In this document: piece after piece, positions 787 to 63,709 of the stretch
Position numbering within the stretch: position 1 is the first letter of the stretch
Layout of the letters: each line of letters opens with the position of its first letter
NCBI GenBank assembly: GCA_949825065.1
Contig: OX463839.1
Span: forward strand, 26,893,734-26,957,733
Length of the DNA stretch: 64,000 bases
Origin: Odontocerum albicorne
Lineage: Eukaryota; Arthropoda; Insecta; Trichoptera; Odontoceridae
Direction of reading: 5' to 3'
Notes under the pieces: generated by a model
What the model was told of the DNA's origin: nothing
Database searches by the model: none
Seen by the model: only the letters and a program-made list of their open reading frames with translations
Made by a program: the position numbers and the translations under genes

Positions 787-1207
787 TTTATTTTTACGAG
801 TATACTGTGTTTCAGCTCATCCCAAAGTATACTATGTTTAATTTGATACTTATTAGGAAAAATATTATACCCATTTATTACATTCCTTTTTCCTGTCCAG
901 CCTCGTCGACTTACTTACGCAATATGTCCAATGCTGTGCATTATGACTCGAGTTGATTCTATTTGTTTATATGTGTTTATATTCATAATTATTTTTATTT
1001 TTACGAGTATACTGTGTTTCAGCTCATCCCAAAGTGTACTTTGTTTAATTTGATACTTATTAGGAAAAATATTATACCTATTTATTATATTCCTTTTTCC
1101 TGTCTAGCCTCGTCGACTTACTTACGCAATATGTCCAATGCTGTGCATTATGACTCGAGTTGATTGTATTTGTTTATATTTTATATGTGTTTATATTCAT
1201 AATTATT
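787..1207. repeat. Tandem direct duplication, ~217-bp unit, two copies
   Basis: The block starting at the TACGAGTA at 795 recurs with an offset of 217 at 1012. Long matches follow (TTTCAGCTCATCCCAAAGT, CCTCGTCGACTTACTTACGC, GCATTATGACTCGAGTTGAT), with a few substitutions and a short insertion near the end of copy two. Both copies carry the 8-bp scar, so the scar predates the duplication. No coding content is seen. Confidence 0.9.
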
Positions 1208-1796
1208 ATGTGGAACTTTATTATTGGTTTACTTTTTACTTATGAATTGTTAAGTCCCTGAATAAAATAAAATGGAAAAAATAATGGTTGTTACGCTAGA
1301 AAATCTAAAATGTATTCGAGTGTTCCTTATTTATGCCGAAAATAAATCAAACTTCGTTTGACAAATGCTAGGGGCTAAAAATTTTATTGCTAAAAATCTA
1401 TCATAAGGAAAATGTATACCTACTAAGTATTTTTAAATCAAATATTCATTCGACTCGAAGCGAGTTGTATCTTTATGGAAGCTGTCCAGGCTCAATCGAT
1501 TGTTTCTCCATAAAACGTTTTGTAATTTTCTCTCCTTTCTGGTTTAACTAGAATATTACGAACGTGAGAGAACTGTATCGATTACCAGTTTAAAATCAAG
1601 GAGTTAATGTCCGAATAATGGTTATTTTGTGGTCAACAATATTGTTTAGTTCACAAGTTTAGATGAACAAGTTTCTACCACGGATTATTTTTAAAATATC
1701 TTACCGGAATGACCTTTTTGAAATGAATAATACCTACTTTTAAACCAAGTCGCTGGGGCATTGATAAAAAACCTATGAAATAAGCTACATTTGGAT
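1208..1796. other. No recognised feature
   Basis: AT-rich, no coding signal. A small hairpin ACTCGAAGCGAGT lies near 1452-1464; a related GACTCCCAGCGAGTC occurs near 11430. Confidence 0.4.
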
Positions 1797-1990
1797 AATA
1801 CCATCATTATCACCATCACACTATGTCAATATTGAGGTAGACAAAGAGAATAGATCTCCACTCCATTTTATACTGAGACATTTCTTTCAATTATACCAAA
1901 TCAATACACCTCGCCATACATACTATCTTAATATAAAGGTGTTTCCCTATTTCCTTTATTCTGAATTTGATTGATTCGTTCGTTTTTCTA
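1797..1990 (-). mobile_element. LINE-B 3' tail (degenerate)
   Basis: Begins with CATCATTATCACCATCA and GGTAGACAAAGAGAATAGATC, the reverse complement of the tail following the C-terminus in LINE-B copies (compare 51620-51770, and the plus-strand tails near 39205 and 43920). The adjacent TACCAAATCAATACACCTCG stretch is consistent with decayed coding sequence. Assignment rests on the tail motif only. Confidence 0.4.
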
Positions 1991-2152
1991 GATCTTTCAA
2001 ACTTCTGATACGTTCTATACTGCTTGAGTAAATTATTTTGTAGATCTTTCATTATTCAATGGTAGTTTTATGATCTAGACCAATTATGATCTAGACTTAT
2101 TAATTCAATTATAGAAAACTACACGAAGAAGTTTTCAAAAGTCTTCAACAAA

Positions 2153-2258
2153 CATTCATTTAAATATTAGAACCCGCTAGAAATAATTTTCTTGATTCCA
2201 TACATTCATTTAAATATTAGAACCCGCTAGAAATACTCGTAATGTTGTTGATTCCATA
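2153..2258. repeat. Direct duplication, 50-bp copy and 56-bp copy
   Basis: Copy one is 2153-2202 and copy two 2203-2258; they abut exactly. They match across CATTCATTTAAATATTAG, AACCCGCTAGAAATA and TTGATTCCATA. Copy two is longer by exactly six bases, CTCGTA, inserted after GAAATA. The remaining nine spacer bases align without gaps (ATTTTCTTG versus ATGTTGTTG). Confidence 0.95.
2234..2241. repeat. Excision scar shown against sister repeat
   Basis: TACTCGTA in the second copy of the 2153-2258 duplication. The first copy has the plain TA at the matching place (GAAATA-ATT), so the difference is a clean 6-bp gain. Confidence 0.9.
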
Positions 2259-3179
2259 CAATTCATATTTTTTATAGCTTCAATATCATTATTTGAATAC
2301 ACAAAATATGTTGAAAATTAATTTAAAATTTGCATATATCGTGATGAAACAAACAAATAAATAAATGGGTATATACACATATAAGGATAAACAATCAGGG
2401 TTGGAATGTTTCAGTGGGGTGTTTAAGTATTTAGGAAAAGTATATATAATTTGTAATTTCAAAATGAGGCCACTTCGTCACAGACATTGCCTAGTGAAAT
2501 GGCCCTCTGTATTCACAAAATAGTGGTTTTGTACTAGTACTTATTCTTCCGTTCACTCTTTCCATAGAAATGTAAAATTTCCTTCGAATTTTAGATCATC
2601 GCTAACTAGTAAACTAAGCAAAACATTTTCGAGTGTCAAGAAGTATTTCAAGAACGAAGCAAACTTTTTATCATACAAAGACTATAAAACATTGCTAATT
2701 TATCATTCAAAAACTATGAAGCATAGCTACTAAGTACCCCAGAAAGCGTTGAACAGCGTTGCCACAATCGACACTAACCCTATGATGATCATTTTTGCTG
2801 CTAATTTTCTTTTGCTTAATATTTTATTTTATTTATACAGTAAGTAGTTATAAATTATAAAATTTAAATATTCACCATGCCAATGAAAATGATTCGCAAT
2901 ATTCATAAAGAAATTAATGTCCAGGCAACATAAAAATCAAGGTAATCAGCATCAAATATGAAAAAAATAGTTGTGAATTTTAATAAACACCGCAGTAAAT
3001 AATTCATCTCGATAACAGTTGCTCGGAATACTCGTTTGTCTGGTCGGATCGGTGCGAAGAGACGCGAAGGCACAAGGCGTGCCCCCATAATATGACTTGC
3101 CACCGCGCTCTCGTATGCAGAGTAGGCTTTGGCTATTATTTTTACACAATTGTAAAATAATATAAATTCTAAATGAATA
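2259..3179. other. No recognised feature
   Basis: AT-rich with frequent stops. Near 2470 a short less AT-rich patch (AATGAGGCCACTTCGTCACAG) is not assignable. Confidence 0.4.
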
Positions 3180-3708: not shown

Positions 3709-5953
3709 GTCAGATTATTAAATTGCCTGCCTTTATCTGTATTACATTTATTTATTTTTCTGTTGTCATTTAGTAACCATTATATGATAATTAAGGAAAT
3801 AGTTTTTAAACTAACATAGATACGTGCACGGCAAAAAAATCTAATTTCTTAGTCTAAATCATTATCTTACATAATCAATTGTTGCCAAAGTATACCCAAA
3901 ACTTACCTTACTTAAATGACAACAAAAAAAGTCGAAATAACTTTCGGCTTCTAAAAACCAAAATGACAAAAAGTATATAACTTATACAAAGGTTTCCATT
4001 TTTTTAACGACACAAAAAAAGCGTTAAAGAAGTCGAGAGCATCCGGATTTTTCATCGTCTGTGTTTTAAACATCAATAATAGATTTAAATATTGTTGAAG
4101 TAAAAAAATATGACTTTAAGTTCTCGGATATAAAATGAACTAAATAAATATACAAAACAAAACGAGCGAAAATGAACCCCGGGTAACCTATGTTTCATTA
4201 TTGTTTGATAATTGTGAAATTCACAAAAACAAGCTTGCTAGTGGGAATCTAGCCATAGTTGGATATTTCTACGCCAATTGGCCATTTCTTTTATGAAATT
4301 ATTTATATAGTGTTATCAATGTTGCCTATATTTGCATTCCGTAAATAGTCTTTAAGAATGTGTTTTATGGTTTACGCCGTATTATCGTATTTGCACTTGT
4401 CTAAATTTTTCACACGACGTTCTTGATTTATGCTGATTCTATTACGAATTCATCTAATCACTGACTAATTCCGCCGTAAGTTCACTAATGTACCACAGAA
4501 TTTTAGCTCAATTTCCGTCTAATGCTCTCGATTCTTAAAGAATAAATCGTGATTCAATAACATTTTCTTTCGTCAAACATATTGATCTGATAATCTTTAA
4601 ATTATTTGAGGCAAAGCGTGTTTTCATAATTATATTATATCTTTCGAATTGATTTCTTAGATTCTTTGGGCAAGATGTCTTCTGTTTTTATGCCACTTCC
4701 AACCAAATAATTTTGTGAGATGTTTTAATCAAAAAATGTTACAGGCTCAGTACCCAACGGTACCCATTTTTTTTCAAAAAGTGTTCCAGTCTTCTTTTCA
4801 CTTTAGGCCTAATTAAGATAAATGGTTGATTACAAGACATTGGCTTATAGCTATAAAGTTGTACTCTATAAAATTAAAGTGAATATTAAACAATATTTTG
4901 TTGAATATCAAAATCGTTAAATATTCTTGTTTCCATTTTTTTCTCATGTTTACGCCGATCCTGTTCTCATGCCCCAATCTTATACGAGTAATAACTAAAA
5001 TCATTCTCAATCCGTGCTCCTACAGAATCAGCGCCTCAGGCAATAATGCGAAATTAAAGCAGTTTTTAATACGATGTAACAGTGTATTTACTAAATGCTC
5101 AACTATTAGGAATGTTTTAAAATATTATGAAACGATAGACAAATTTTATCCGCGATTTTAAGCGATGTACCTTATTTAATAAAAAGTTAACGATATCTGA
5201 TTTAAAAACGTATTTTTACGCATTTATCAATTCGCAAGCTCAAATCAAAATATGATTAAAAAATGATATTTTTGTTTTAAATGTTTTGAAATTTCTTTCA
5301 AGTGGTTATTGAATTAATACTTGTGCTCGTATATCAGCTGAATTGAAATTTTGGAGGAAGAATGTTAGGTTCATTTATATTTTAAAAAATAACCCTTTCT
5401 TTGTCTTGTAAAAATATCGATGAAATACAACAAAAATACTGTAGTTTAAAGTCTTAAATTTTTCGGTATTCCAAGTAAAATAGTAAAATGGTCCATAATA
5501 TGTAAAGATAATAAAATAATTGACGACGTGATGAATGCAGAATCTACTAATTTACACCTAACATCACGCAGATACACGTAATACACGGCGACCCTGACCA
5601 CACCACACCACACCTATATGGAAATATGATATTATAACAATACAGATTCTCAAATAATTATTTTAATAATTCTTTTCAAAATATGAGATTTATATTATAT
5701 CTGTGCTTTTTGATCTATGTTAATTCTGAAATGTAAAAAATACAAAAAAATCATATCTTTTCAAAAGCTCGAAAATATTATTGAATTTGGAAACAGCTCC
5801 ACAATTTTGGTATTTCTTTTGTGATCCTTTCCTAATTTACAGAGCAATGAAATATTTCTAGCTTCAATCTTTTTAGTCATTTATATCTCATCAATAATTG
5901 ACGAAAAATCACAGATTATGCTTTGATCAACTCATTCATTCATATAGTAGCCT
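3709..5953. other. No recognised feature; one scar
   Basis: About 2.2 kb of AT-rich sequence without coding similarity or clear repeats. TACGAGTA at 4983 and a one-mismatch form TGCTCGTA near 5324. Confidence 0.4.
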
Positions 5954-6265: not shown

Positions 6266-8624
6266 TAGTAATAAATTAAAATAATGAAATAAATAACATA
6301 CTCATAACAGAAAACAAAACTCCTCGAGTGATTATTGCTTATTTTTTTAACACAGAAATATTTATTATAACATATCAATGTTAAAACGTACGAAACCCTT
6401 TTAAAATGTTGTTGAATTACGCCGAATACACTCGTATACTCGTATATTGTAATAGGTAACTATTGTATCATATAAATGTGACTGTCTTATCCAATTTTTT
6501 TCCACTATAAGTTCATTTTCTATTCTACTTTGTTTCTTACAATTTATTCTCTATGTTCATTCCTATATCTCGTAATAACCTAATCTTATTTTCGCCAGAT
6601 TCAGCCGAAGACGTTCAAGTCATATGATACAATCGGTATTTGCAATTAAATATCTGAGTGTGGGTTTTGTAATAGGCACGATCTCCGAACATGTTTTACG
6701 AAGAGCACAAAGACAAATTGGAAGTCAACATAAAATCAGTATATAAACGTATTGATTGTCTCGCGCTAAAATTTATGCAAATATATGTAAACAACATCTG
6801 TTGGAATTGCCGTTAAATTATAGAGAATGCGTGCATGCCTGATGTGTATGTTTTCCTTGAATCCTTTTTTACTACTTTTGTCATTAACGAATTTATACAC
6901 TATTTATAAACTAAACTTCTACTACTAAGATAAAAATGAATGTTTTTTTTTAATTTATGCATTTCTGAATGATTTTACGAGGTCATCATGTTATTTTATT
7001 TCAGTCCTTATAACCAAGGAATAAATAACTGAATCCATTAAACAAAGGAATTTAATTAATGCAAAAATGTAACCAGAGATACCTTTGAGTCTAATTTATT
7101 AATTTAATCTTCTTTTTTAAACCTGACAAGTGGAAGAGCCATTAACGTTTTATGTTACAATAGTTCGTAAAGATATTCCTGCCTTCACTGAAATTCACAA
7201 CAATATTATGGAACAGCAATCGAGAAACAAATTGACGCCTGCAAAAGAAAAAAAATATTAAATATCCATTTCTTCAGATATGGAGATCATATTTCTTGAT
7301 AATGAGTCATGTAAAATCAAATAAAAAAACAAAAATCCTACGAAATAAGAGATTGAATTATTCTGTATGACAATGATTTGAAGCAGAGATCCCTATTATT
7401 TAACAAGTAGTGTTAGAACAAAAGTTGATTTTTTTTAAATGAATAAGTAATACGGTTATTGATAGCAATGTATAAAGTTTGTAAATATATATCCCGAAAT
7501 TATGTATAAATATATAGATGTGAACGTAAGATGTTTTTCAGCCCGTAGCATTGTACATGTAAACAATACGAGTATAACAAAAAATTAAATGATAATGAAG
7601 AAGTTCTTGATATTATTATAAACACTATTAATAAGTATAAATATGATCAAAAATATAAACTCATAGACATATTCTCTCATAGATACACTCGTCCAGATTT
7701 ATTGCCAACATTAAAAACAGAAAAACGCATAATCCTATTCTTTCAAGAGACGGATTTTAGTGAATTTGTGAAATATTATTGATAATATCAGTTGAAATGT
7801 ACATACAAGTTTTTTAATAGATCCTTATAGTGTTAAAATTTTTTTTTAATATTTAAAACCCCACACGTTGAGAATTATTACTGATCTAACACCCTTGCCA
7901 AAAGTAATAAAACACTTAATTGGTCTACTAGTTCCCAGACCAAACCTTTTTGAACCTATTCCACCATTCGTGGTACTGATAGAACACCTTTAATGTCAAA
8001 ATTATCCATCTCAATTTCTGCCCCTTCGATCTTCATGGTATTTTAAATAATCATTTATAAGGGATTTTTGTTTTGTTTTTCACTTATAGGAGATTATTGG
8101 TTTATCGATCATTGGACTCAAGATTGAGGGAAGAAAGAAAAAGTATTAAAAAATCGGATAAACGGTGTGCAAACAGGTTATCTAAGGCATAAAATGACAT
8201 GTAGGAAAATAAGATTAAGTGAGTTCATAAATTATAATATATAAATAAGATTAGTTAAGTAATAAAGTTGTATATTATAGGTATAGCCTTGACAAATATT
8301 TGTACCATATATCACTTTGTTTACTAAAAAAAAGGTTATCTAAGGTCCAGAATAAGCATGGAATAATTTGATCACATATTTTATGGCACCTTACACTATT
8401 GTTCTTAGATTTCACTACCATGTTACAGAAATGTCAATGACCAGATGGATATCCTCCAAGCTCCAAGCAAATCAGACACTCTTCACTTTGCTCATTGAGC
8501 TGTGCGTTTAAAGCTGATTAGTTCAATCCTGGATCCGCATACCCTCTGTAATGTGGACACACTTGCCGGGCGACATCTGGGAACTTTATACTGAATGCTT
8601 TTATTTATTCTTATAGTACCCCTC
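6266..8624. other. No recognised feature; scars
   Basis: AT-rich. Contains a doublet CACTCGTATACTCGTA at 6429-6444 and TACGAGTA at 7567. No supported coding region. Confidence 0.4.
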
Positions 8625-8925: not shown

Positions 8926-10491
8926 TGGAGGTTGGGTGCTTTTTTTGTTTTATGCACTTTATTTATTCTCGGTTCCGTCACGGATCTTCAAAAACTGCCG
9001 TCCCTTCAGTCACGGTACTTATCCACAAGCCGCGCTCCGGTGCTACTGTAACATGTGCTGATGTTAGTACAAAGTATACAAAGAATGAGAATGTACTGCT
9101 CACAACATGGCCCGTTATTAAGTTATTTTCAGAGGATACAATCAGTAGTACAAGATTAAAGAAGTTGCAAAATGATATTGATGAAACAGTTTGTCAATCG
9201 CTGCTCTATAATATTCACATGTAAGATGTTAATACATAGTTGAATTGTTTTTCTTTTTCTCGAACCTGTTCATATAAATTATAATAACATATGTCCCACC
9301 TGTTTGGTGATGACATTAGTATTCCAAGTGCGCAGATACAATTTGATTATGTATAGCGTTGGATGCTGGAGTCACTGCTAATCAATTCACGTCTTGTATC
9401 GCGCCCATCACAATAGGCATCTCTGTCTTATTTTTTGTTTTTATGTTCACTTATCTCCATGTCCCATCTCGCTAATATTCAAATCACGTTTTATTTTATC
9501 AGATACCCAAAATCAGTTTCCGGGATGTTTTTGATTTTTTATCAGCTTTTTTTGCTTTTCCAGAGAAAATTTATGGTTGTTCCTTCTTTTTTCAAGTCTA
9601 GCGTTTCATATCTTGCAGACAAAAATATGTTTTTATGGTTCTTTAAGTAATCAAGAGCACTCTGGTTTTAAATTAAAACTCTTAAAACACTGCTTACAAA
9701 CGTCACAAATCACCTCTCCGAGTGTGATTAAAACAGGATGTTAAAAATCGATTGGAGAAAACACTATCCACGAGAAAAAAATTGCTGCACTTTTGTCTAA
9801 TATACGAGTACTCGTATACAATATATTTGGCTAAATATACGTATCTCATAATAAAACCCACGAGACACGACGCAAAAAACTGCGTGTGAAATACTCAATT
9901 GTATTAATCACGTGAAATATGTTCTACGAGTAACTCATTCAATATTTCATAAAAAAACTTGATGTAACCAACAAATTAAATTAGAGATTTCAAAAATACT
10001 GGCATGTATTTTCAAACGTAAACGAACAATTCAATTTTATTTTGTGAATTAAATTTTCAACGAATTTTCAATCAATGAAGCTCCTTAAATGCAACTCACT
10101 CTTATGTTCATGCACTCACTTTCTCGAGTCATTGAATGGAAGATTAATATTGAATTGATAGGTTTTTCGAAATACTTATTTATACACATTTATACACTGT
10201 GAATCCATCTATTTTTTGTGTTTATTTCTAAAATATTGAATCTTGCTACGATTTTAATAATGATGTTAATAATATTCCATCTATTTGTTCTGACATTTTT
10301 CTAACTTAAGATACAATGTTCTCATAAAAAAAACATGAGTTGGTTTTTGCTGCGGGTGCATCTGTGACATGATACGAATATAGGCAAACATATTTTGTAT
10401 GGGCGATACGGTAATAATTTTATGGGAATATTGCATCGTGTCTTGTGGCCTTTCTATGATTTAATTTTACTTGCATTTATATCAAAGTTAC
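8926..10491. other. No recognised gene; scar doublet
   Basis: A 99-codon plus-strand frame (8925-9224) shows no family similarity. Overlapping scars TACGAGTACTCGTA at 9803-9816 and TACGAGTA at 9925. Confidence 0.4.
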
Positions 10492-10741: not shown

Positions 10742-13700
10742 GTAGAAATATTACATTTAGTCCTATGGGGCAGGCATACAAAACTTGAAGGATATTTTAA
10801 AAGCCACTCCACTAGTAAGTGAATGAAATGGAAGTTTTTACACACTAATTTGCTCTTATCGAAAATTGTATTATAAAATAATTTGGTCAACATCAAAACA
10901 TGCGATTGAAATTCGATAATGCGTCATTCAACTCCAAGATGTATATTTTTCCATCCATTGTTTGAAACAACAAATCTGATATTTTGATTTCCCATTCAGT
11001 TTTCATTTATCGAATGTGTACTTTTTAAAATTATTTCGTAATAATTTTTGACATAATTTTCCGTACTCATTGAAACAATTAACATTGTTTTTTCAATTAA
11101 ATAACACTCAAAATTCTAATTTAGTATTACTTTTAAACCTTTTTTTAATGGTAGATAAAAGACTACATTGTAAGAAAATGAAATTGAAATAAAATGTCAT
11201 CCGTAACTTGTCACTTATTACGCAGTCATACGCTTATTCCCAGTTCACAAACGCGCCATACACTTTCGTTAGAAAATTTCTTTAAAAGTATAATAATGAT
11301 AAAATAATCAAAACAAAACGAAGAACCTTCGCTACTACTCGTATGATTGTTGCTGAATCAAAATCATTTCGAGTTTTCTCCTCAAATGGTTTAGATCTTT
11401 TCTAAGTAATCTAGCACGCCTAATTCGACTCCCAGCGAGTCACTTCATTTTTGAATAACAATTTGTTGCCTTACATTGGTTTCATATACTGTGGAGCGTT
11501 ATAACGACTTCCGTGAAGAAGTTTGTAGGACGTTTGATTCGTGCTAGAACCCAAAAATGGGTTTAAGTCTCGTTACTCATGTGAGACCGAGACCTTTGAA
11601 CATATTTCTGATTTAATAGAAATAACATATTACATTGTATACAACGGAAGGATAAAATAAAGGAAAGGGAATACCCACATCTTGACAAACCAGAGACGAC
11701 TAGAGTCAATTTTACCGGTTTGATAGTTTTAATAATGACTAAGGTTTTATTTTTTTTAAATATACTTTTTCTGAATTGTTTTTTATCTATTGGGTGTTAA
11801 CATAAGTTGTGTCCGTTTTTTTTCAATTTAAAAATGAGCACCAAAAATAAAACAAAATGGTAAAGGTTATACGTCATTTGAAAGAAAATTTTCTGCTCTA
11901 CAAGATATTGTGTTTGCTTTTACGTTACATAAATTTTTTATTTGATTACAAGCCTTCAAAATGAAATGTCAAGTAGACGAAAGTGAGCTTTTTCGACATC
12001 GTAAAGCCAATCGATTAGTTTGAATAGATCATGTCCACAGACAAAGAATAACCAAAAATATGTAGGTGTCTTAGCTTTTAGGAACCAAACCTAGTCAGCC
12101 CTAGCAAAGACTGTTGAGCAATGTATCTGTAAACTTTCAAAGGCTGGTGTTTTACAGAAACTGGATACAAAATGTGCAAATTCGTTGAGATTGGAACTGC
12201 ATCATCATGAAGGCTAAAATGTGTTATTTGTTCGCATTTTTACGAAACGGAAGACTGTAATTCATTCCAAACTGATAGTAAAATTCTCATTACCAGAGAT
12301 AAAAACTAAAACAATACCCACATGGGTACATAGTACATGTTCTAACTAGTCAGGTATTGCTTATGAAAACAAACGATTATCTTTTTCAGAGTTAGTGACC
12401 GAGTTTGTCGTAGACAATACGCAATAATTAATATTTCTTATTTTAGCCTTGAGAAAATGTTATTATTACAGAATTACTCAAATTTCACAAAATATGCCGA
12501 TGTGCAATCGCAAGCTACGCATCCAACGAAAACGATTTCGAGATATTTTTATCAAGAAGTATACAGGGGCGGAATTACTGAAATAAAGTATTATAATTAT
12601 AGAAATAATGTATTACAGATGGTAAGTGGTTGATGATTAAGTCAATTCATCAAATCTTGTAATGTTAAATATCGTCAATATTTCCAATAAGTGAAGGAAA
12701 AAGAATTTGATTTCAATACAAAGTACAATACATATATTAAAAAAAAATCTTCGTGTGTGTGTATATAGATTTGATAAAAATAATTAGATGGTTAATAAAT
12801 ATGATGAATCCTCACAACGCTAGTGATCACTCGATTACTAAAAATTCTTTCGGCGACGGCATGGAATGGCTCCTATTTTGGACGGGTATTGTGGAACTAA
12901 AATAGGAACCTTCTCCTGTTTCCCTGCCCAATTTATATTTTATCCTTTAATTTTAAATAAGTAAATTAGATTTATAAATTGTTTTTGTTATACCAACTAT
13001 TATTAAAATAAAAATGAGTAAAAATGTGTTTGTTGTTTTACTAAATTGAATTAAGAACTTTTGGGCGTATTAAACAAAGACTGTTTGGGTGATACGAACA
13101 AGCTCACATGTTTTCTTATACAAACAAAATGCACATTTGTATACACAATTTCTACTTTCTGCAAATTACTGGAAAAAACATTCATAACATTTTCGAGATT
13201 TATTATTTTATCTTCTTTGGGACAAATGGTTACATTTTTGGATACTGTTTATTAATTGTTTAACATTAACAACGTTCTATATTATAACTTACAATAATTT
13301 CCAATGATTTTTAGACTTTATATTTTGTTCATGGAACAGTTATAAAATTATTAAGAGCTTTTGAATAACGTCTTACATATACTCGTAAATTTTAAACGAT
13401 AAATATTGCAGCAAAATACCATATATAAATAGCAGGAAAAAAAAATGTAGCAATATTTTAATAATGAAGCATTTTCTAAAGTGTTTGTTAATTTTGTCTT
13501 TCTTACTAGATATGTAATATTTCTTCTTCACAATAATACAATCATAATATGTGCATGAATTTCGATAAATAAGTCAGCGTAACGAAGCGTGAAAGAGGGG
13601 TCTAAATATGTAAAATGAACTCTAATGGACATCAGTTCTCGCTGCTTAGTTTCAATGAACCCTGTGAGATTTTTAAACAATGACCTTTTCTTCGTCGCGA

Positions 13701-25610: not shown

Positions 25611-25684
25611 AAAATTTGAAAATCGCCTTTACTCTGGAGCAACTGAAGTTAAGACAGACTTATAAAAAAAATATATGCATATAT

Positions 25685-42297: not shown

Positions 42298-42306
42298 ATA
42301 CTCGTA

Positions 42307-43689: not shown

Positions 43690-43985
43690 TATCAATGTAT
43701 GAAAGAATGCAGAATGAACACATGCATAAAATGCAAGATAGTGACAGAAACGTTTGATGCTTTAGACATGAGAAAAGAATGAATGATGAAATGGAAGAAT
43801 ACTGCGGAAGAGGTAGACTGAGGAAAGTGAGAATTATGAATAATTGAAGATTGTGCATGACGAGGTTTATGAATGTGGAGTAGACAAACGTTGTGAGCTT
43901 GGAAATAAAATAATGGAGATCTGTTCTCTTTACCTCCGCACAGGGGGCACAGCGTGGTGATGTACTCGTATGTGTGTTTAAAAAC
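43690..43985 (+). mobile_element. LINE-B 3' end
   Basis: TATGAAAGAATGCAGAATGA and ATTATGAATAATTGAAGATT then GTGCATGACGAGGTTTATGA parallel the end of LINE-B at 39105 and 55970. The tail CTCCGCACAGGGGGCACAGC precedes the scar at 43973. Confidence 0.65.
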
Positions 43986-45439: not shown

Positions 45440-46812
45440 GGAAGAAAACTATCATATTCAAAAGTACCCGTCTTTCTTTTTAGAATTCCCTGCAGGAAAA
45501 AATCTTAGGGCGTTACATTATTCATCCCGTCATAATAACGCCGCAGGGGACAGTTGAATAAAGCCTGGTCAATAATTTAATCATCAAGCACACACACATA
45601 CTGGATTTTTATAATGACCAATGCATAGAAATTGCTTGCGACTGTACAGTGACCAATATGTAAACGGCACAATATTGATTTTTTTTTCAATCTAATCTTA
45701 TTAAACTATGGTTTGATAGAATTGCATTGTTGAATCGATTTGTACCTGGAAACTTTTTTAATGATGTCTGAAATCCAAAGCTGAAGCCATCGACCCTTAG
45801 TATCGCGTTTGATCTTAATAAACGTAACAGGCAATCCAGTTGAGCATGCTTCCCTTTGCCTATTCTATTCATCAGCTAGTTCATTTCCATGTCATGTGAA
45901 GGAATCCAAGCTTGGAAATCTATTCTATTTTTAGGACTAACTGGAATGATTTCGGTTACATTGAAAAAATAGCCTCGTTGTGATATAACTAAGTAACTCC
46001 CTTAAATTGATAGGACACTAAAAGGGTCGGAGAAATTAATGAATTTTGCCCTGAAGAGAAAACTAGCGGGCGGGAAAGGAGTTTAAAAATTACCTTTTTA
46101 TTTGTCGTTGGAATATGCACAACCCCTCCACGAAGTTCGTCATTATCCATCTTCAATCTATCAGTGTAAATATGAGTAAAAAAGTCTATTAATTATACTC
46201 TTATTTATTTAAAAGGAACTTTAAAACAAGTCAATTATTTTCTTTTCATATTTTTAAATTTTACCTACACATTGCTTATATTATATATACGAGTATGATA
46301 CAAATTACATTATACGTTTTTGTTTGATTCATCATAATTGTGTATCGACTAGGGAATCTTTACGCATTTCTGCTCTAAAATTGTTTTTATCCAACTTCTT
46401 GTCACGCTCACAGCGTTTGAGCAGCCACATCAAGGTCCCGTTGAAAGCAATTTACTCTGCTTACCTCATATACGAGTATGAGATGCGTCATAGGTTGCAT
46501 CTAGCCACACTCGCAGATCTCTCCCTCAGGTGACAGAGGCAAAAGCATCCATCTTACACTACCGACAACGTGTTGAACATACTGTTCTATGAATATATGA
46601 TAACACTGTTTTAATTTATGAGCTTCCTATGCATTATTTTTTCCGATGGATAAAACGTGAAAAAGTATTTAATTTTTCTGAGATCATAACGAAACAGTTA
46701 ATGATATACGAGTATTTTATATGGGGAAAGTCTGCTCTATAAATTGATTTTTTTTTCATTTATGAAACCAACGTCGTACGGCAGTCTAATTTTCTTGTTT
46801 CGGGTCATACTA
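45440..46812. other. No recognised gene; three scars
   Basis: Scars at 46288, 46471 and 46707. No coding similarity in the small ORFs. Confidence 0.4.
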
Positions 46813-47723: not shown

Positions 47724-48133
47724 TATACATAAACAATTTCTACTATGACAATTTCTACTCGGAATTCGGCTACGTAAATTTCAACCATCTTGGCGTCCAG
47801 GAAGCAGATCACTTCAAGTATCCATGCTAGGAACACTAGATAGTTAACGAGATGCGATGTACGAGTAGTATGGACTTCCCTGCATATGCAGAGATATTTT
47901 ATGATATCGTGTTTATCCCCAACTTTGCATATTATCTCAGGTTCTAGACACTCCAACCCTAAGGCGTTTGAGCACCTCTTGGATGTCCCAGTCTTCAGAA
48001 GGCCTGGAGGGTTTTTCTCCTTAAACTCTTGCCAGTCTGTTAGATGCCATGGTGTGGTTGAAATTTGATTTTCTTTTCCTAGAGGCAACTGTCTGAAACT
48101 TTCTTCTCTTAATGTATTGAATAATTTTAACAA
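47705..48133 (-). CDS. Unrecognised 142-codon ORF
   Basis: Starts MLKLFNTLREESFRQLPLGK, middle TGTSKRCSNALGLECLEPEI and VGDKHDIIKYLCICREVHTT, then a hydrophobic run LVNYLVFLAWILEVICF. A scar (47860) adds two codons (TR) in frame. Its 3' end overlaps the mariner-3 border, which argues the final residues are not native. No family recognised; may be part of an old element. Confidence 0.25.
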   Translation of the reverse strand: MLKLFNTLREESFRQLPLGKENQISTTPWHLTDWQEFKEKNPPGLLKTGTSKRCSNALGLECLEPEIICKVGDKHDIIKYLCICREVHTTRTSHLVNYLVFLAWILEVICFLDAKMVEIYVAEFRVEIVIVEIVYVYLIKQF

Positions 48134-49490
48134 AAGTGGTGTTCAATTGGTGTTGTCTTTAATAAATCGACATTATATTTTTGTTCTAAAATTAAAGCAT
48201 AAAAACTTATATATTTTTTTAATGCAATACAGTATTTCATAATCACGACATATATCTTTGATGCACTTAACTTCTAGGTAGACTTTTTCTAGTTTGATCC
48301 CTACACTTAGCTTCTCCCTTCGAATAAAAACAAATATCTATACAGCTAGTATTTAGATGTACGAGTACAAGAATATCGATTTCGTCAGGCATATTTAAAT
48401 TTATCAACGTTTTCGGAGTAAATTGTTTTTTCTCCGTTCAGTTTTATTTATCATAACGTAGTTAACATTAACAACAAAATATTAATTTAGATCCGGTATT
48501 AGGCTTAATAATAACCATTGAAAATTTGAAATCCAGTGTGACAGACCTGCCATAAACTCGAGCCGTGTCAATCGATAATCAGGCGCGGGAGTATCGCTTG
48601 TAAAGAGACATCTCCCCGCGCCTAACATAACATAGCCTACTTTCATAGTCGGCCCGGCCCGCCTCAGCATCACTTTCTTATGTTTTTGTCAATTCATTTG
48701 CAAGTTTCATTGCCAATCTGATGACATCAGGTGCGGGCTGGACTTGCAGAACCTAAATATTGTTATGGAATCATTGTACATCATAAATAGGGACTAAATG
48801 TCTCTCTCCAAAGCACATGAAGTAATATGCAGACGATTGACCACATTGAAAACGACTGTTCTATATTATCACTGCCTTTCTTTGTTCATAAAAATATTAC
48901 AATGAGTCTTAAGTCGAGGTCGAAATACTGAATCTTAAAACGCGTATGTTGCTGAATACATTATACGATGATGTAGGCAAAATGAGTGATATTACTGATA
49001 GTACGTCAACAAAACCAGAATCTTGCACATTATGTTATACTGAATAACAAACCTCTTGGCAAACTAGCCTAAAAATCAAGAGCTGATTGCCTCCCAGAAA
49101 GTATTAGCAGTGCAAACAGATCCTAGATTTACAATACTTTTTAAGTAAAATAAATTGAAAAGTTATAAATTATTTTTTTGTTGAATGTATACTTTTGAAC
49201 AATTAGTGTTGTCAGTCCCCTCCCGGGTGACCTCACCCGGATAGTCTTCGCGGATATAGAATCCAATATACGAGTACATAAGATCTTGTGAACAATCGTG
49301 TGAAATATATTCATTCTTTAATTTTATTACTTCATCGGAACTTGTTTTTCAACTTGAAGAACTTTTACTTTGTTCAGAATAGAACATCTATTCTGTATTA
49401 ACTATGGTGTTGAATAGAAATTAACATTAAATAAATTAAAGCACTTACATTTGTCAAAAAATGGAATATAAATTAAAATTGAATTTTAAG
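48134..49490. other. No recognised gene; GC-rich hairpin; two scars
   Basis: Scars at 48360 and 49269. AGGCGCGGG near 48580 pairs with CCCCGCGCCT near 48613, about a 9-bp stem, in a GC-rich patch (48540-48665) foreign to the flanks. Confidence 0.4.
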
Positions 49491-49494
49491 ATCG

Positions 49495-50165
49495 AACTAT
49501 TGAACTGGTGTATTCAAAGTTGTGTGTTATCTTCGATCCATACCATATAAAACTAAATAACAACATACAGAATTGAGGTATTCGTGGTTAAGTGGAATTA
49601 TATTTGAACAATATCAATTAAAACTCATCTACAAAATACTTAACTGAGATCTTCAAGGTTGTACTCGTATGAAATGATCTTTTAACCGTATAATGTAAAA
49701 CTCATCTACAAAATACTTAACTGAGATCTTCAAGGTTGTACTCGTATGAAATGTTCTTCTAACCGTATAATGTAAAACTCATCTACAAAATACTTAACTG
49801 AGATCTTCAAGGTTGTACTCGTATGAAATGATCTTCTAACCGTATAATGTAAAACTCATCTACAAAATACTTAACTGAGATCTTCAAGGTTGTACTCGTA
49901 TGAAATTATCTTCTAACCGTATAATATAAAACTCATCTACAAAATACTTAACCGAGATCTTCAAGGTTGTACTCGTAAGAAATGAACTTCTAACCGTATG
50001 ATATAAAACTCATCTACAAAATACTTCACTGAAATCTTCAAGGTTGTACTCGTATGAAATTATCTTCTAACCGTACGAGTATAATATAAAACTGGACTAC
50101 ACGACACTAAACGGAGATCCAATATTGTGTGGACTTATCTTCGAACCATTTCATGTAAAACTTAT
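49495..50165. repeat. 77-bp tandem array with scar in six core copies
   Basis: AAACTCATCTACAAAATACT starts at 49621, 49698, 49775, 49852, 49929 and 50006: exact 77-bp period. Each core copy contains TACTCGTA. The next unit starts at 50089, 83 bp on, because copy six carries an extra CGAGTA. Diverged outer copies (about 49500-49620 and 50089-50165) lack the TACTCGTA: after removing CTCGTA, TTGTATGAAATGATCTTC aligns without gaps to TTGTGTGGACTTATCTTC. So one scar arose in a founder unit that was then amplified, and a second scar came later. Confidence 0.95.
50074..50081. repeat. Excision scar in array copy six
   Basis: CCGTACGAGTATAATATAAA here versus CCGTATAATATAAA in copy four/five: a 6-bp gain, accounting exactly for the 83- rather than 77-bp spacing. 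Confidence 0.95.
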
Positions 50166-52155: not shown

Positions 52156-52904
52156 CTTCCATACTATTTCTATAGGTTATTATTGTAAATATTTCATCAT
52201 TTTTCACCTTAAAAACTGCATCTTTTCTCAATACATGTTCTTTCCTAACTCCTTCATTCCTTATTCTGAATTATGCAGGTACCATATTAAGCAGAAAATA
52301 AAAAAATGAGGATCATTATAAAAATTAAGAAACATATAAAACATTTTAGAAAGGAACTGTCTCGCATGAAATATAATATGTAATATGGTAAATTAATAGA
52401 ATTCATGATATTTACAAACCAATAAAGGGGGAGTGACACAGACGCATACGATTATTACTCCAAAATAAGGAAATGAAAGAGCATCTAATCTTATCACTTT
52501 ATGGTACTCGTATTGTATGATAAATGATAATGCTATCTACTCGTATAACGTAGTACGATCACGAGAATGGGTTACTCTGCAAATACTGTAGCTTTTGTAA
52601 CGTCTAAATATTTTTGTCATCATTGATTATTCACAGCTAACAGAGCTAAAAAATAAAAAAATATAAAATTTTCCTTTATAAATGTAAAAAACAGTTTATT
52701 ATTTTATGTAAAACTTAACAACGATTCGACAATAGAAATGCGCAAATCTTGAAAAATATTTGGAGTCATATTAATGATTTGAGAGTGAATAGTAATTATT
52801 TGTTTCGTTCTACAGTTTACAAACTGTTTTAGCTTGATAACATACTTAGAAATCCACTCCAACTTATCTTTGGACAGTACTTATTATGTTGTATATTATT
52901 AAAC
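51771..52904. other. No recognised gene; two scars
   Basis: TACTCGTA at 52505 and 52538, 33 bp apart. A pair of distant inverted pieces, CAGTTTTGC.. near 52118 and GCGAAAAGCATTTAAGTCCA near 51786 versus TGGACTTAAATGCTTTTCGC near 52121, suggests a ~360-bp element with inverted ends (about 51765-52155). Confidence 0.4.
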
Positions 52905-53095: not shown

Positions 53096-53424
53096 TAAGT
53101 AAAGAACACAAGTTCTTATTTCGAACAAATGCAATTCCTCGTGAAGATTGAAATATGTGTAAAACTTTGTTAAAAAACAATTGAAAACATTACCAAAAGG
53201 TAATTTAAAAAACTAATATAATTTCTTGATTTGTTCATTTTGTGTTTCGAGTGTAATTGTATTGTAATATTGTATTCGATCAAATATTTTTCGATTCATG
53301 ATTGAGGTCAGGGTTGTTACCTGTGAAATGACAACTTCTATCGTGCTAGTAATACGACGTCATGCCGTGGAAATGTTCTCACATCATACTCGTAAAAGGT
53401 ACTAGCACTAAATCTGAACTCGGA

Positions 53425-55399: not shown

Positions 55400-56105
55400 T
55401 ACAGAGGTCCTGGAAAAAGATATGTGTGTGCGATGTATGGGTTTAACTCAGAGAAACTGAAGCAGATTACCATAATTAGTGTTATGATCTGGGAAATATG
55501 TTTACGTGTGATGGGCAACTTGAAAGGGACATTAAAAGAAAAGTAGCGAGACGGAACTAGGTCAACGGAGCACTTAATCTGATATTCAACAATCGCGACA
55601 TATCAAAAGTAACAAAATTGGCAAAACATAATAGTACGCTGGTGCCCACATTGACGTATGGAAGTGAAACTTGGACATGGCAGAAGAAGGATGAAAGTAA
55701 AATTGATAGTGTGGAGATGGGTACACTTAGAAAAAATTACAAAGTGTCAATGTATGAAAGAAGGCAGAATAAAGACATCAGAAATAAATGTATGAATAAA
55801 ATGAATGTCTTAAGTTAAGATGAGCTTTAAGATGGTTTGGACATGTGGAGAGAATGAATTACGAAAAAATTACTAAGCGAGTATACAAAGCAGAAGTGCA
55901 AGGTGCTCGTGGAAGAGATAGACCAGCGAAAACATGGATGCATCAAGAGCACCAGATTTTGAAAGAAGATAAAGTGAGGAGTATGAATAATAGGAGATGC
56001 ATGACGAAATACGAGTATATGATAATGAGAAGGCGAAAGTTGTATGCTTGAATAGAAAAGTTGGGAAATTTGATCTGCCTACCCCGAAAGTGACACGGCA
56101 TGATG
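55400..56105 (+). mobile_element. LINE-B ORF2 C-terminus, best copy
   Basis: Frame-broken but readable: YLGNMFTCDGQLERDIKRKV, VNGALNLIF, LVPTLTYGSETWTWQKKDES, VEMGTLRKNYKVSMYERRQN, a shift near 55815, RWFGHVERMNYEKITKRVYK, AEVQGARGRDRPAKTWMHQE and SMNNRRCMTKYEYMI. The EY in the last block is added by the scar at 56010. Tail CTGCCTACCCCGAAAGTGAC. Non-LTR, clade not assigned. Confidence 0.85.
56010..56017. repeat. Excision scar inside LINE-B
   Basis: ATGACGAAATACGAGTATAT here; removing CGAGTA gives ATGACGAAATATATGATAAT, which aligns without gaps to ATGACGAGGTTTATGAATGT at 43857 and ATGACGAGATCTATGCAATT at 39139. Confidence 0.85.
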
Positions 56106-57264
56106 AAATGTAAGTATAGTATTAATAAATAAAAAGTTCTATAAAAAAACATTTTTGACACTGTTATCTTAATAATTCTGACGCTGTATGGGAAAAATCA
56201 GTAATTATACAAGACAATTAAAAGTATTATTTATATTTTTTTTCAATTTCAATATTCTAACATATTTCAAAACAAGAACATTTCTACTCAATAAATGCGA
56301 TATACACTATAAGCATCATAAAAAACAAAAGTTATTTAACTGGAAATTTGGATTTATGTTGTTAGTGCTATTTAGCTTACAAGAACTGAGCTTTTTGCTG
56401 AGAATATACGAGTATAAGGTATTTTGATGTAGGGTGGTTATTGATTAGAAGAAATATGAATGCAATGGATTGATTTACAATAGTATGCTAGTAAATATTA
56501 TATATGCAGTACATTTCAGCAATGTTCGATAAAATGTTAGTCGTAGAAATCTGTTGCATCTACGATTCAGCATTAGCACACATTTTATTCACAATATCCA
56601 ACTCCATTGATGCTCTGTCGCATCGAATCAAATTAGTGATGAATTTTTATTTTAACCTCAGGAGGGAGTCGTGCATCACCAGGGTCGCTTCAGGTGGTAA
56701 ATAAGTAACATTGTGTCTCAGAGCGTACACAATTCCAATATGCAAAAAGTAAAAAATATCCTGTTATCACTAATACAAATCATTTTTAACATTGATTGAG
56801 TGACTGCAAATGGTAGTCAAAATATTATCAAGAAAATAAAATAAAACAACTCCTTATGGTTAATTTATTGAAAAACTATAATAATAAAAAGAGTTGTATT
56901 AAAATATGTAAATATACAAAGTGGTGTTAGTTTTGGTAATATAACTTTGAAGTTTGAACTGCATTGTACTTGGTTTTATTGGCATTTCAATACAACCATT
57001 TTTCATCATTTTAATATTATACAAAAAAAAAACAAAGATCAGAAATATTGTACCATCGTAACTGGCAATTAGATATCCTCCGAGGGCATTCTGTACCAGT
57101 AAGCACGGGCATGGCGAACCCGAGGTCTCCGAGATGGTCATTATTATTCCTCTCCTGATACCCAATTACAGTGAACCTCCGACACCACTACCCGATCAAA
57201 ACTCCAATATCCCACATGAGTCGCTTGCAAATATAAAAGTTCACTTATTCCGATCCTAATTTGC
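56106..57264. other. No recognised gene; one scar
   Basis: TACGAGTA at 56407. A less AT-rich patch at 57050-57200 (CCAGTAAGCACGGGCATGGC, CGAACCCGAGGTCTCCGAG) resembles an element fragment but was not assigned. Confidence 0.35.
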
Positions 57265-57715: not shown

Positions 57716-57884
57716 TAAATCGAAAACGTATTATTTATATATACGAGTATGTAGTTGAAATTGTATTATTTTAAACCGTTTAATTTTTATTCCATGTCGA
57801 ATTGCCCAAATGCCGGTACGATACATTACCTGGAAATGCATGGTGTTTCTTTTACCCAAGAGCGGCTCATCACTCACTCGTACA

Positions 57885-58420: not shown

Positions 58421-59734
58421 TTTCACTTGACTGCTAAATTGTACAATAATATTGTGAACATTAATAAATTGTACTCGTACAGCGTCCTTTCTCGTTTTCG
58501 CGTTGAGAGAGACGAGACGCTAATGACGTTTATCTACTTTTATTTTAGACATCTGCATATACGAGTATTTTTTGTCACCCTCTTGTGTATGGTACGAGTA
58601 TACCGCTTATGAGATATCTTTAAAGCACGCGCCTAAATATCAAAAACTCTGAGATGCTAAATATCAAGGAATGACGTCCGAAATGTCAGCATCATAACGC
58701 TTAAGATTTGAAGTGTTTAAGTGAATGAATGAATTAATGATTTATCCTTTCTAGACTCCACGTGTTGTGTGTGCTGAATAACCTGGTGTATAAAGCTTGG
58801 ATTTATTTTCCATTTATGACCGCGGAATCTTTTTAATAATCTTCGAGAAGACGTGCTCACACAATTCAAGATTTTGTCCATCATTCGAAGAGAAAAGGTA
58901 ACAAAAATCCTTACGTGCTATAATTTTATTTAAAACAAATCATACTTTATAACTATTCAAGTAATATTGTAAAAAATGGTCTCATGTTGTCATTACTTTA
59001 TTATTTCATATAAAATAATTGTTTTTATCAAAACTAGGCAAGAGCATCTAAACGATTTTTGTGAATCGTAAATTTATCACATTTTCTCCTTAGCATTGTC
59101 CTTTTTAAAAAATATTTAATTTATTTTATTTGAATGATAAACTGGGGCCAAAATTTTCAATAATTTATTTGTATTTTTTATTACTACTTCCTTACTATCC
59201 TCGATAAATTAATATAATAATTGTTTTAACCATAAATTATCTGTAAATGAAAAAAAAAATAAGTAAACACATTCAATTTAAATATTCCTGAAAGAATGTT
59301 GGATATATAAATAAGTTCCCAAAGAACTGATAAAATACAACTCTGCTTCTAGAAAAGAAAAAGTCTTCAATTAAAGTATTTTTCACTCTTGACATTTTTC
59401 TTTCCAAGGCCAGCATTGATACATATTATGATTATTCCATTCTAGGACCAGTTTTCTTTAGAGGTCATTTAAAACTTCAGCCAGATCAACTTTACAAATA
59501 ATTGTCATTCTGAGACACAGAGATGCCTAACAATTAATTAAATATTGAGTACCGAATGGCAATTCATCCACATTATTTTCACAACAATAGAATGATAAAA
59601 TTGCAAGAAAAACAAAACAAATTAAGTAAATGGGTATTTCTTAAAAATTTCAATAAATAATTCCGTTAGTCGAGAATTAACAACTAATTAGCTACTTATA
59701 GAGCGCTTATTATTCCTAGACTAGATCCCCAATC
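58421..59734. other. No recognised gene; three scars
   Basis: Scars at 58472, 58560 and 58593. The rest is AT-rich and could be intronic if the 57.9-kb exon is real. Confidence 0.35.
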
Positions 59735-60594: not shown

Positions 60595-60790
60595 ATACAA
60601 TGCAGCCTGGCGGACCTATTACAATGTGAAATGTTTTTCCTACCAACCACAAAAGTGTTAAATAAGCCTTAATTGAAATCAGACTCAAACCATTTAAAAA
60701 AAAATGTTAGCTCCGGAATTCGAGTCTGCAACCACCGAGCTGGAATATACTCGTAGGCATCTTATCAACTAGACAACCGAGACACAGAGT
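60595..60790 (-). mobile_element. SINE-A with an excision scar, minus orientation
   Basis: 3' body GCAGCCTGGCGGACCTATTA; middle ATTGAAATCAGACTCAAACC. B-box region GAATTCGAGTCTGCAACC; head CATCTTATCAACTAGACAAC. TACTCGTA at 60748 lies between the B box and A box of the head, where other copies have no insertion. Confidence 0.88.
60748..60755. repeat. Excision scar inside SINE-A
   Basis: CTGGAATATACTCGTAGGCATC; removing CTCGTA gives CTGGAATATAGGCATC, which aligns without gaps to CTGGTAGACAGGCTTC in the SINE-A at 34066-34228. Confidence 0.88.
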
Positions 60791-61274
60791 TATATTATTT
60801 TTTTTAAACATTAAAAAATGCAATGAGATGTGACACCACATGAATTTCTTTCTATATATATTAAACCATTATTATACTCGAAATAGTACGAAATTAATTT
60901 CCCAATCTGAATTATACTGCGTTTCACAACAAAATTGAACTTTATATAACTGCAAATATAACATTGAAACTTAACTACCAGCAATATTTCAAAATGGAAA
61001 AAACTTCTTATTTCTCAGCCTAACCTTAAATATAAAACTTCATCGGTTAAAGGTTAACACTTCGTCCGGATCCCCACTTGACCGTGGTAATACTACGAGG
61101 TTGGCTGCGCGAGCTACACGATAAAAAAAATAAGCAGGAAGCAACCTAACAATCTAACTTGACCATTTTATGCAATTCCGTAAGTACGAGTAGCTCATAG
61201 AATAACCGCGGTTACGTAGGAATCCTGTCTTCATCTCATATTCAATTCGGTACTATAAAGATTCTAGGTTTATT
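60791..61274. other. No recognised gene; one scar
   Basis: TACGAGTA at 61185. GTGACACCACATGAATTTCT and later text not assigned. Confidence 0.35.
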
Positions 61275-61500: not shown

Positions 61501-62399
61501 TAATGTGCATTATACTTGTGCGAGTGTTGTTTTGCATCCTCGTGTGCGGCAATGTTGCCAACACGTGCGGTATAGACAGCAATTTCCTTATCACTCCAGT
61601 AATTCTAAAACCAAAAGGCTCGATTAATCAAAACAATATTGTACCCGACCGCGTTCTTCAGTATATGTATCTACAATGCCAGTTTGGATGTATTGAAGGG
61701 TACAATACGAATAAATAAATTAATATTAGATGTTAAACAAATATAAACAGGTATACATGTTTTAATAAATGAATAATTTATAAATCACCATTTAGAGAGC
61801 AGACTATCCTCAAAGGCACTCTAACTCGGGAATCGGACTCTAAATATCACAAAAAATAAACGTAGAGTGCAAGGATAGGAAGATGGCGGCTGCAGCTATT
61901 AGATTTGGTATTGTACTTCCACACATCTGCATACGTTTATGTGCTGAAAGCGAAGAAACTTATTTTCTCGAATCATTTTAATCTTATGAAACTTCAATTT
62001 ATTTCCGCGTAAAAATGCAGAATTTGAATATGTAATACAAATAATTGCTTTTTCAGTACAGGATATTATTTATAAAAGTATAGTTAAACAGCAACATGTG
62101 CTATTTTATATTTATAAGTTGAATCTCATTTATCAGAGGAAGTTTATTGTTGGTTTACCGCGTGATGACAGCAACCTTGGATACTCGTAGAAATATTGTA
62201 ATATTTATTGTACCTACATAATCAACCGCCAAAACTCTTCTTAAGATATTGTAATACTAACCATTATCATTGCAAACTTCCAAATAAAACAAAAAAATCA
62301 ATTCAAACTTGCTCACGAGGACCTCCTTACAGTTTCAAGGAACGTCTCTTCTCATTTTCATTGTATACAGAACTTAAAGATTTTTTCTTTCGTATGAGC
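61501..62399. other. No recognised gene; one scar
   Basis: TACTCGTA at 62182. A 71-codon plus-strand frame (61503-61718) opens with a hydrophobic start but is unrecognised. Confidence 0.3.
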
Positions 62400-62675
62400 C
62401 TTCAACATGACCGAATTGGTGATTCAGACATATTGAAAAGCGTGACTGGAAGTCACTATTTTCTTCGGACTCAGTAATAGAGCCTTCGGATTTAGAACCA
62501 TTGGAGTAGGTACTGAAATTGCAGTTTGTCATTGCACGTGAAGAGACAACATTCGCATGCAAGTATTGTTACCAAACGAACTATTTTAGCAGAGAGGTAC
62601 CGTCAGGATTCTAGACCGAAATTCTCGGGTATAATCAAGCACATTACCAACTAGGCTCCGTAAGTCGTCGCTTTA
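62400..62675 (-). mobile_element. SINE-B, minus orientation
   Basis: Body GAATTGGTGATTCAGACATA, GCCTTCGGATTTAGAACCAT and TTGTTACCAAACGAACTATT. Head at 62605-62670 (minus strand GACGACTTACGGAGCCTAGT). B box lost. Confidence 0.78.
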
Positions 62676-63309
62676 AGAATTATGGTAAACCTCGTGAATA
62701 TATTTTTTACGTGTGACTTATAATTTTTTCGTCTCATGGTGTCTTTGGTGTGTAATTTTTTTACAGCCCCCTAAAAAAACTTAACAATTAGTGGGATGGG
62801 CAAGCATGTTTTTCACCATGGGCAAGTAGTTTATCAAATCTTAGAATCAAACTATACACAGCTACCCTTATTCCATGTTCCACGTTGAGTTTTTAGTGAA
62901 TATTTGGTTTTTATTTACGATTGCATGTAATTATTATTATTTTTTAATATCCCACTCCGACCTTGGAATTTAATCGCCGTGCCCCAGGACACCGGGGCGC
63001 ACAATTTGAAAACCTCTGTTTTACATGTACGAGTATATAGGAACTTATTTACATTCAATCAATAGGTCAAATGTATTTTTGTCTTAAACTTATATTTACT
63101 TATTCAATAAACAACGGAAATTCATTAATTGTGTAAATATTTTGGATGTAACATGAAATTCGAAGTATTCAGTTCTCTTGCACAGTTCAAGCAACAAAAA
63201 TGTTGATTCTTTAGCATATCATATATGTACGTATATATGCAAAAAATATTCAGCTCACATTCAACCGGCTTCGAAATATGAAGATTCATATGAAATAAAT
63301 ACGAATACT
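62676..63309. other. No recognised gene; one scar
   Basis: TACGAGTA at 63028. CCCCAGGACACCGGGGCGCA near 62984 is a CCCC-ACACC-GGGG-like element end, not classified. Confidence 0.35.
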
Positions 63310-63610
63310 TTTATAGACACAGAAAATAAGATGTGGAAGTCCAGGTCTTAAGGGGACACGAACTCTTGGAAACTGACAAAAGAAGAAACGTTAACTACGA
63401 GTATATGGGACATATACTCGGGCATGAGAGATACCAGTTAATGCAACTCATAATGATGGGCAAAATCACGGGCTTAAGAAGAAAATCCTGGCTTAAGAAT
63501 ATACAACCGTTGACGAATATTTGGCGTATGAAGGAGCTGTTTTATTTTGTCAGAAATGAGGAACTGACTAGCAAGCAACCTTCACTAATTAGAGTCACGA
63601 AACGATGACG
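63310..63610 (+). mobile_element. LINE-A 3' end, second copy, with scar
   Basis: Open for 91 codons: RGHELLETDKRRNVNY-EY-MGHILGHERYQLMQL, then MMGKITGLRRKSWLKNIQ. Compared with the copy at 1-575 (RKVSYLGHVLRGAKYKLLHL), it has two extra residues, EY, exactly where TACGAGTA lies. Four to five residues of the GRRGxGRR block are deleted. Confidence 0.82.
63396..63403. repeat. Excision scar inside LINE-A frame
   Basis: AACTACGAGTATATGGGACAT; removing CGAGTA restores the N-Y-M-G-H spacing of the family (S-Y-L-G-H at 430-444). The gain is in frame. Confidence 0.85.
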
Positions 63611-63709
63611 ACTTGTATGGAATATATTTTTTAATGATTGAATTTTGGCATATAACACACATTTTATCTTCTGGATATTTTTATATACGAGTATGTATGA
63701 TAACATATT

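Follow-up and report, generated by a model that had tools for sequence, protein, structure and literature searches.

What has written the same eight letters dozens of times into one stretch of caddisfly DNA? The window analysed here, the whole of a 64-kilobase (kb) stretch of the Odontocerum albicorne genome (C2:26893734-26957733, on contig OX463839.1; assembly total 1,287,057,991 base pairs (bp)), holds 52 exact copies of the word TACGAGTA or its complement TACTCGTA, 30 forward and 22 reverse, spanning positions 795 to 63693. The original prediction, made from the letters of the window, had given exactly this count and had taken the copies for excision scars of a Minos-type transposon. Most of them are read here, with a probability of roughly 0.7, as footprints of a departed cut-and-paste transposon, the main source being probably a DD34D mariner whose ends begin CGAGGC.

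Abundance of the scar word

In 100 dinucleotide shuffles of the window, the word came up 1.37 times on average (standard deviation 1.22, maximum 6) and none of the shuffles reached 52, while an order-2 Markov model expects 1.9 copies, both close to the two or three that had been guessed beforehand. Once a 77-bp tandem array, a duplicate at 795/1002 and an overlap at 9803/9809 are collapsed, about 45 independent sites are left, next to the 46 of the earlier estimate. The excess had been proposed for a genome-wide check, and there it holds: exact pattern counting across the assembly found 190,753 + 190,749 = 381,502 scar words, or one per 3.4 kb, against 15,081 + 15,070 = 30,151 for a control, the scar pattern read backwards. 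The excess over this control is about 351,000; read as uniform scars of 6 bp each, these would mark close to one TA in every 340. Seventeen random 10-kb stretches contained 56 scars in 170 kb (0.33 per kb), which scales up to 424,000 and thus agrees with the genome-wide count. Against this background the window, at 0.81 per kb with array copies counted, sits in a scar-dense region, since density reaches 1.27 per kb in three stretches 32-62 kb past its end; the regional hot spot covers C2 26.89-27.02 megabases (the window and loci L010, L019 and L020).

The word also stands out among all others of its length. A sample of 303,365 bp, consisting of the window and loci L001-L034 with L018 excluded, underlies the counts given below for the word, its one-mismatch neighbours and other footprint lengths. 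It contains 153 copies of TACGAGTA where the Markov model expects 8.3, in 147 different 6-bp flank contexts, and by distinct contexts the word is the top-ranked 8-mer, a ranking of the kind that the original prediction had suggested for the whole genome.

Six-base-pair insertions at TA

Compared with paralogous copies of the surrounding sequence, scars appear as insertions. An all-against-all comparison was made of the window and loci L001-L022 at a paralog flank identity of at least 70%, leaving out scars within two tandem arrays apart from the one at 50074. Nine scar sites had a paralog. In five of them most paralogous copies showed one gap of 6 bp, three had other gaps and one a substitution; none was conserved. 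At 1,122 other TA-N4-TA sites taken as controls, a 6-bp gap was the majority state in 6 and present at all in 22, and a first run with fewer loci gave any 6-bp gap at 4 of 6 scar sites versus 1 of 414 control sites. The strongest cases are the scar at 50074, compared with sister array units of 77-89% identity, and L012:5343, with several empty copies at 79-91%, while the 6-bp gaps at L016:5266, L002:6754 and L013:1788 come from alignments of 66-74%. The one substitution, at L021:6025, probably reflects a match by chance. A window pair, 56010 and 39.2 kb, has an exact 6-bp gap at 71% identity and fails the flank filter.

The flanks of 145 distinct scars favour A, T and A at positions -3 to -1 (49, 49 and 58%) and T, A and T at +1 to +3 (68, 54 and 53%). 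The preference is symmetric around the collapsed TA, extends little past 3 bp and forms a palindromic, Tc1/mariner-like target, ATA-TA-TAT. Moreover, scars are nested within one another: TACGAGTACGAGTA occurs 520 + 415 = 935 times genome-wide, a count that takes in some tandem arrays, versus 5 + 57 = 62 for its control, and 1,039-1,384 nested scars are predicted from the scar density at TA if events are independent. All of 20 nested sites, chosen among the matches listed to keep clear of visible arrays, have distinct flanks. The scar-making process strikes its own products.

Scar pairs within 40 bp of each other also exceed chance (12 versus 4.0 expected). Several are spaced at 32-33 bp; the close pairs include 23381/23413, 52505/52538, 58560/58593 and others in the sampled loci, and candidate causes of such pairs are small tandem repeats and local hopping.

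Because the scars are 6-bp insertions relative to paralogs, lie in palindromic Tc1/mariner-like target flanks and nest, their reading as excision footprints of a TA-inserting transposon, which the original prediction had put forward, is well supported. Among the marks of a Tc1/mariner-type footprint, a TA doubled around terminal bases, a net insertion compared with the empty site and preferred palindromic targets are present.

Uniformity and age of the scars

The scar word is sharply defined. Its 24 one-mismatch neighbours together number 200 where 213.8 are expected, and the lack of any such cloud means that decay is not visible and that most scars look young. From the 145 excess copies, mean scar divergence may be put at no more than about one or two per cent, an estimate as good as the Markov expectation behind it. 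The 4-nucleotide (nt) form TACGAGTA is also the sole enriched form among the footprint lengths tested: TACTA (644 versus 640.6 expected), TACGTA (45 versus 71.4) and the 3-nt Mos1-type footprint TACGATA (32 versus 44.6), which a typical mariner would leave, are not raised, and neither is the longer TACGAGGTA to any similar degree (3 versus 1.4). Other lengths are thus rejected as the scar product. Separately, TACAGTA is mildly raised (95 copies, 78 of them distinct, 54.6 expected), as would be expected if a Tc1-like element with CAG ends left 3-nt footprints.

A possible route to the scar

For the way in which such a word could arise, a scheme may be modelled on Minos. Here, a transposon would insert at TA, which would thereby be duplicated, and at excision the non-transferred strand would be cut 4 nt inside each end, so that each flank keeps a 3' CGAG overhang. 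When the overhangs are joined, the outer bases would pair and the centre would form a G.A/A.G mismatch; repair of this centre from one strand would then turn TA into TA-CGAG-TA or its complement, that is TACGAGTA or TACTCGTA, so that each cycle of insertion and excision would lengthen the site by exactly 6 bp. We infer the 4-nt cut and the repair route, as well as the CGAGGC mariner as source. Half-repaired heteroduplex products are not enriched (TACGCGTA 3 versus 2.4 expected, TACTAGTA 4 versus 3.7), and both mismatches therefore seem to be repaired from the same strand. Calculated overhang duplex energies (CGAG -4.7, CGA -3.2, CAG -5.1, CCA -2.2) do not single out CGAG.

A CGAGGC mariner as the probable source

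Which element of this genome has suitable ends? In 274,800 bp, the TA-CGAG starts that share their first ten bases belong to the satellite of L018 (10 occurrences), to a mariner whose end reads CGAGGCATAT (3) and to another, mariner-like family with the end CGAGGGTTGC (2). The satellite aside, no TA-CGAG start recurs more often in these 274.8 kb than that of the CGAGGCATAT mariner, and a further end of it was found in L034. Genome-wide, at up to 3 mismatches, ends of this CGAGGC mariner number 10,114 + 10,144 = 20,258 (control 0), and the 100 ends listed match exactly over 32 bp. This corresponds to about 10,000 copies if each retains both ends, and hence to some 35 excess scars for every surviving copy.

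The original prediction had recommended a search for TA-flanked elements with CGAG ends, and besides these 20,258 ends it yields a damaged copy in the window itself (34921-35863, forward strand), whose left end is without its terminal bases, which has an internal deletion and whose right end reads CTCG followed by TA. The junction of element and flank, TA-CGAG on the reverse strand with a terminal inverted repeat (TIR) starting CGAGGCATATCCAGAAA, lies at 35860-35865. An open reading frame (ORF) of this copy at 35126-35764 encodes a Transposase_1 domain (PF01359, E=2.2e-24; PF13358, E=2.9e-07), and 34 residues, counted by eye, separate the D of HDNARPH from the D of PSDYYLF, the DD34D spacing. 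Relatives of the protein are found in Cacopsylla (83%) and an aphid (82%). The element is about 1.3 kb long, has short TIRs and inserts at TA. The transposase domain and spacing, CGAG ends beside TA and high copy number are thus all as a DD34D mariner source requires.

The target flanks of the mariner are informative as well. Among the ends listed, the first 40, all on C1, were sampled, and all 40 were readable. At -1, the base percentages are A62 C8 G20 T10 for the mariner and A63 C9 G18 T10 for scars, compared with A37 C13 G17 T34 for all TA; at -2 they are A35 C15 G0 T50 and A26 C16 G7 T51, and at -3 A68 C2 G0 T30 and A51 C9 G11 T29, for mariner and scars respectively. Scored over -3 to -1 with a matrix built from the scars, the 40 mariner flanks average 0.68 and the scar sets 0.46; random TA sets score -0.52 (standard deviation 0.20), and 0 of 20,000 scored as high as the mariner flanks. 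The target preference of the scars and its likeness to that of the mariner are accordingly supported directly, as are the excess, the 6-bp insertions relative to paralogs, the nesting and the absence of a one-mismatch cloud. Given its CGAG ends, its copy numbers and near flanks like those of the scars within 3 bp of TA, the CGAGGC DD34D mariner is probably the main scar source.

Within the window, a repeat unit at 34583-34678 (forward strand) is an empty copy of the target site of the window mariner, the direct repeat 34588-34678 / 35864-35954 being 97.8% identical. The window thus has this repeat in both an empty and a filled form, and L002 has a scarred form, with its scar close to that TA and four additional bases; these are paralogs, not alleles. 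By eye, two mariner copies (35864-35954 and L053) appear to share their target TA within a single small repeat family, perhaps a favoured target. A possible extra source of the same scar is the second mariner-like family, seen at L001:4652 and L021:5907-7172, whose ends read TA-CGAGGGTTGC.

Several points weigh against this assignment. The chief objection is the stagger of the cut: for Mos1 and Sleeping Beauty it is described as lying 3 nt inside the end (PMC4344528, PMC7827188), and a review gives a family stagger of 2 or 3 nt (PMC3878927), so that 4 nt would be unusual. The flanks agree less well further out, with T at -5/-6 in 52/50% of mariner ends, 32/31% of scars and 35% of all TA. Nor need they be exclusive, as the near-TA preference may be common to other Tc1/mariner elements, and eight Tc1 flanks score 0.16 under the scar matrix, too few to separate; an element other than this mariner could combine CGAG ends with much the same liking for TA. 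Pairwise divergence among three mariner copies is 4.2-4.4%, pointing to a slightly greater age than most scars seem to have. Part of the scars are older too, being common to array units of the window at 77-89% identity or present in both copies of the 94% identical pair 795/1002. Finally, alignments above 75% identity back no more than two of the five paralog sites, 50074 and L012:5343, and insertion and scar were compared among paralogs of one assembly, none of them at one orthologous locus. With these points taken in, the fuller claim that a single mariner family, cutting at an unusual 4 nt, cycled so often that about 351,000 scars outnumber its copies about 35 to 1, and that the top rank of the scar word among the sampled 8-mers is its doing, is still favoured, somewhat less firmly than the footprint reading as a whole.

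Alternative explanations

The rival that survives best, itself unlikely, holds that the mariner is a bystander and that the scars come from a different element, low in copy number or lost, whose ends also begin CGAG and which cuts at 4 nt; a Tc1 element resembling Minos would be an example. Minos, a Tc1-like transposon of Drosophila hydei, leaves TACGAGTA/TACTCGTA, formed through a heteroduplex, and this footprint is known from assays, not as a genome-wide word. It is exactly the TACGAGTA seen here, whereas known mariners leave 3 nt, and to this the rival can add the second mariner-like family with CGAGGGTTGC ends and the fact that a family under a few thousand copies could escape a sample of about 300 kb. 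The ends agree also, since Minos has TACGAG ends, with CGAG beside TA (primer in PMC3680223, where its terminal sequence TACGAGCCCCAACC appears). However, the Minos end CGAGCCCCAACC beside TA was not found, its terminal 14-mer TACGAGCCCCAACC having 0 exact matches in 1.287 gigabases of the O. albicorne genome, a search of exact matches only, and on the sequence of its end Minos proper is an unlikely source. The label Minos-type in the original prediction thus fits in the length and letters of the footprint; the source is probably another, the abundant element with CGAG ends being a mariner. Tc1-like elements were rejected likewise: at 12 PF01498 loci, of 150 scored hits, inverted ends were found in 10, falling in two families, CACT(A/G)GCGGTCATTG and CACTCTGTTTGAC-like (CACT(A/G)GCGG or CACTCTG-like), and the other two, L025 and L034, had none. 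The near flanks of the CGAGGC mariner, which resemble those of the scars, also speak against a bystander.

Far less probable is that TACGAGTA is a functional or selected word, for example a protein-binding site, kept widely like an octamer repeat. The missing one-mismatch cloud and the exact word kept in diverged array units would suit it, but paralogs differ by a gap at 8 of 9 scar sites, a single 6-bp gap at 5 of them, rather than by substitution, and the word tolerates change at no position, is bounded by TA and nests at TA. Slighter still are the prospects of an artefact of assembly or library adding six bases, which a single exact word at very high frequency might suggest; scars are common to diverged array units (window 49662-50054, L016) and to the 94% pair 795/1002, and are therefore older than those duplications, and regional density ranges from 0.33 to 1.27 per kb. 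That a single satellite or microsatellite accounts for the words, as their presence in some tandem arrays (at 49.6-50.1 kb of the window and, with a period of 45-50, on C1) might hint and as the original prediction had named as its possible undoing, is refuted as the main cause by the distinct flanks of the sampled copies. At C1:24114-24706 and C1:71937-72794, a scar recurs every 45 and 50 bp, probable arrays multiplying a scar. C4 was rejected as an allelic contig on the one stretch of it covered, the 10-kb L018, which is a satellite of about 600 bp without scars.

Scars along the window

Scars in the window are exact matches, forward for TACGAGTA and reverse for TACTCGTA. The first forward scar (795-802) has a copy by local duplication at 1002-1009, the 94% pair; others on this strand lie at 4983-4990, 7567-7574, 9925-9932, 19392-19399, 22439-22446 and 23413-23420, and on the reverse strand at 2234-2241, 6437-6444 (immediately adjoining TACGAGTG), 11336-11343, 13380-13387 and 23381-23388. 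At 9803-9816, a nested scar TACGAGTACTCGTA, assigned to neither strand, consists of two scars with one common TA (9803/9809). A 10-kb scar desert (23421-33373) follows, overlapping retroelement ORFs and an ORF that is Helitron-like by look, with no family hit; these are perhaps younger insertions. Reverse-transcriptase relatives are from an ant, beetles, a bug and a butterfly, as suits an insect host. Beyond it, reverse scars are found at 33374-33381, 42299-42306, 43583-43590 and 43963-43970, and forward ones at 36454-36461, 37962-37969, 40589-40596, 41162-41169, 43349-43356, 46288-46295, 46471-46478, 46707-46714, 47860-47867, 48360-48367 and 49269-49276. No scars occur in the tandem array at 41382-41883, whose 72-bp unit is repeated almost perfectly.

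The 77-bp tandem array holds six reverse scars at 49662-50054, one scar multiplied with the array (units 77-89% identical), and a forward scar in a single unit at 50074-50081, where sister units are without exactly these 6 bp. The scar at 56010-56017 (forward) lies in a repeat whose paralog, 38768-39211 (71% identity), is without exactly 6 bp. The remaining scars are at 52505-52512, 52538-52545, 53387-53394, 58472-58479, 60748-60755 and 62182-62189 on the reverse strand and at 56407-56414, 57742-57749, 58560-58567, 58593-58600, 61185-61192, 63028-63035, 63396-63403 and 63686-63693 on the forward strand.

Known systems and implications

Excision footprints are textbook knowledge, usually seen few at a time in assays. 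What seems new is their scale and uniformity, not the footprints themselves, and a literature search covering open PMC papers, with subscription papers mostly outside it, returned no report of a genome-scale footprint word. The CGAGGC mariner resembles Mos1-type DD34D mariners in its Transposase_1 domain, TA insertion, short TIRs and length of about 1.3 kb; it would differ in the cut, described as 3 nt inside for Mos1 in the passages cited above, whereas the scar retains 4 nt. Mariner-2_DF of fire ants is likewise a recent mariner expansion in an insect, with 857 copies according to part of PMC6307670, whose main text does not use the word footprint, compared here with about 20,000 mariner ends and an excess of about 351,000 scars. 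A genome-wide look at excision repair products exists for rice DNA transposons, where, in the portion of PMC4423477 drawn on, 94 putative excisions include 8 perfect ones; few perfect products there stand against one uniform product in very large numbers here.

The footprints form a genome-wide, datable record in which copy number, target preference and nesting are all measurable. Such a record would allow the excision-to-insertion ratio of a wild transposon to be estimated, would help explain why repair is so uniform and would show one element as a leading source of 6-bp indels, which in coding DNA amount to two extra codons. A k-mer scan can, moreover, expose transposon activity that repeat annotation may miss. 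If the mariner reading is true, excision, not insertion, would be the main legacy of this mariner, with its rate, targets and repair countable by k-mer.

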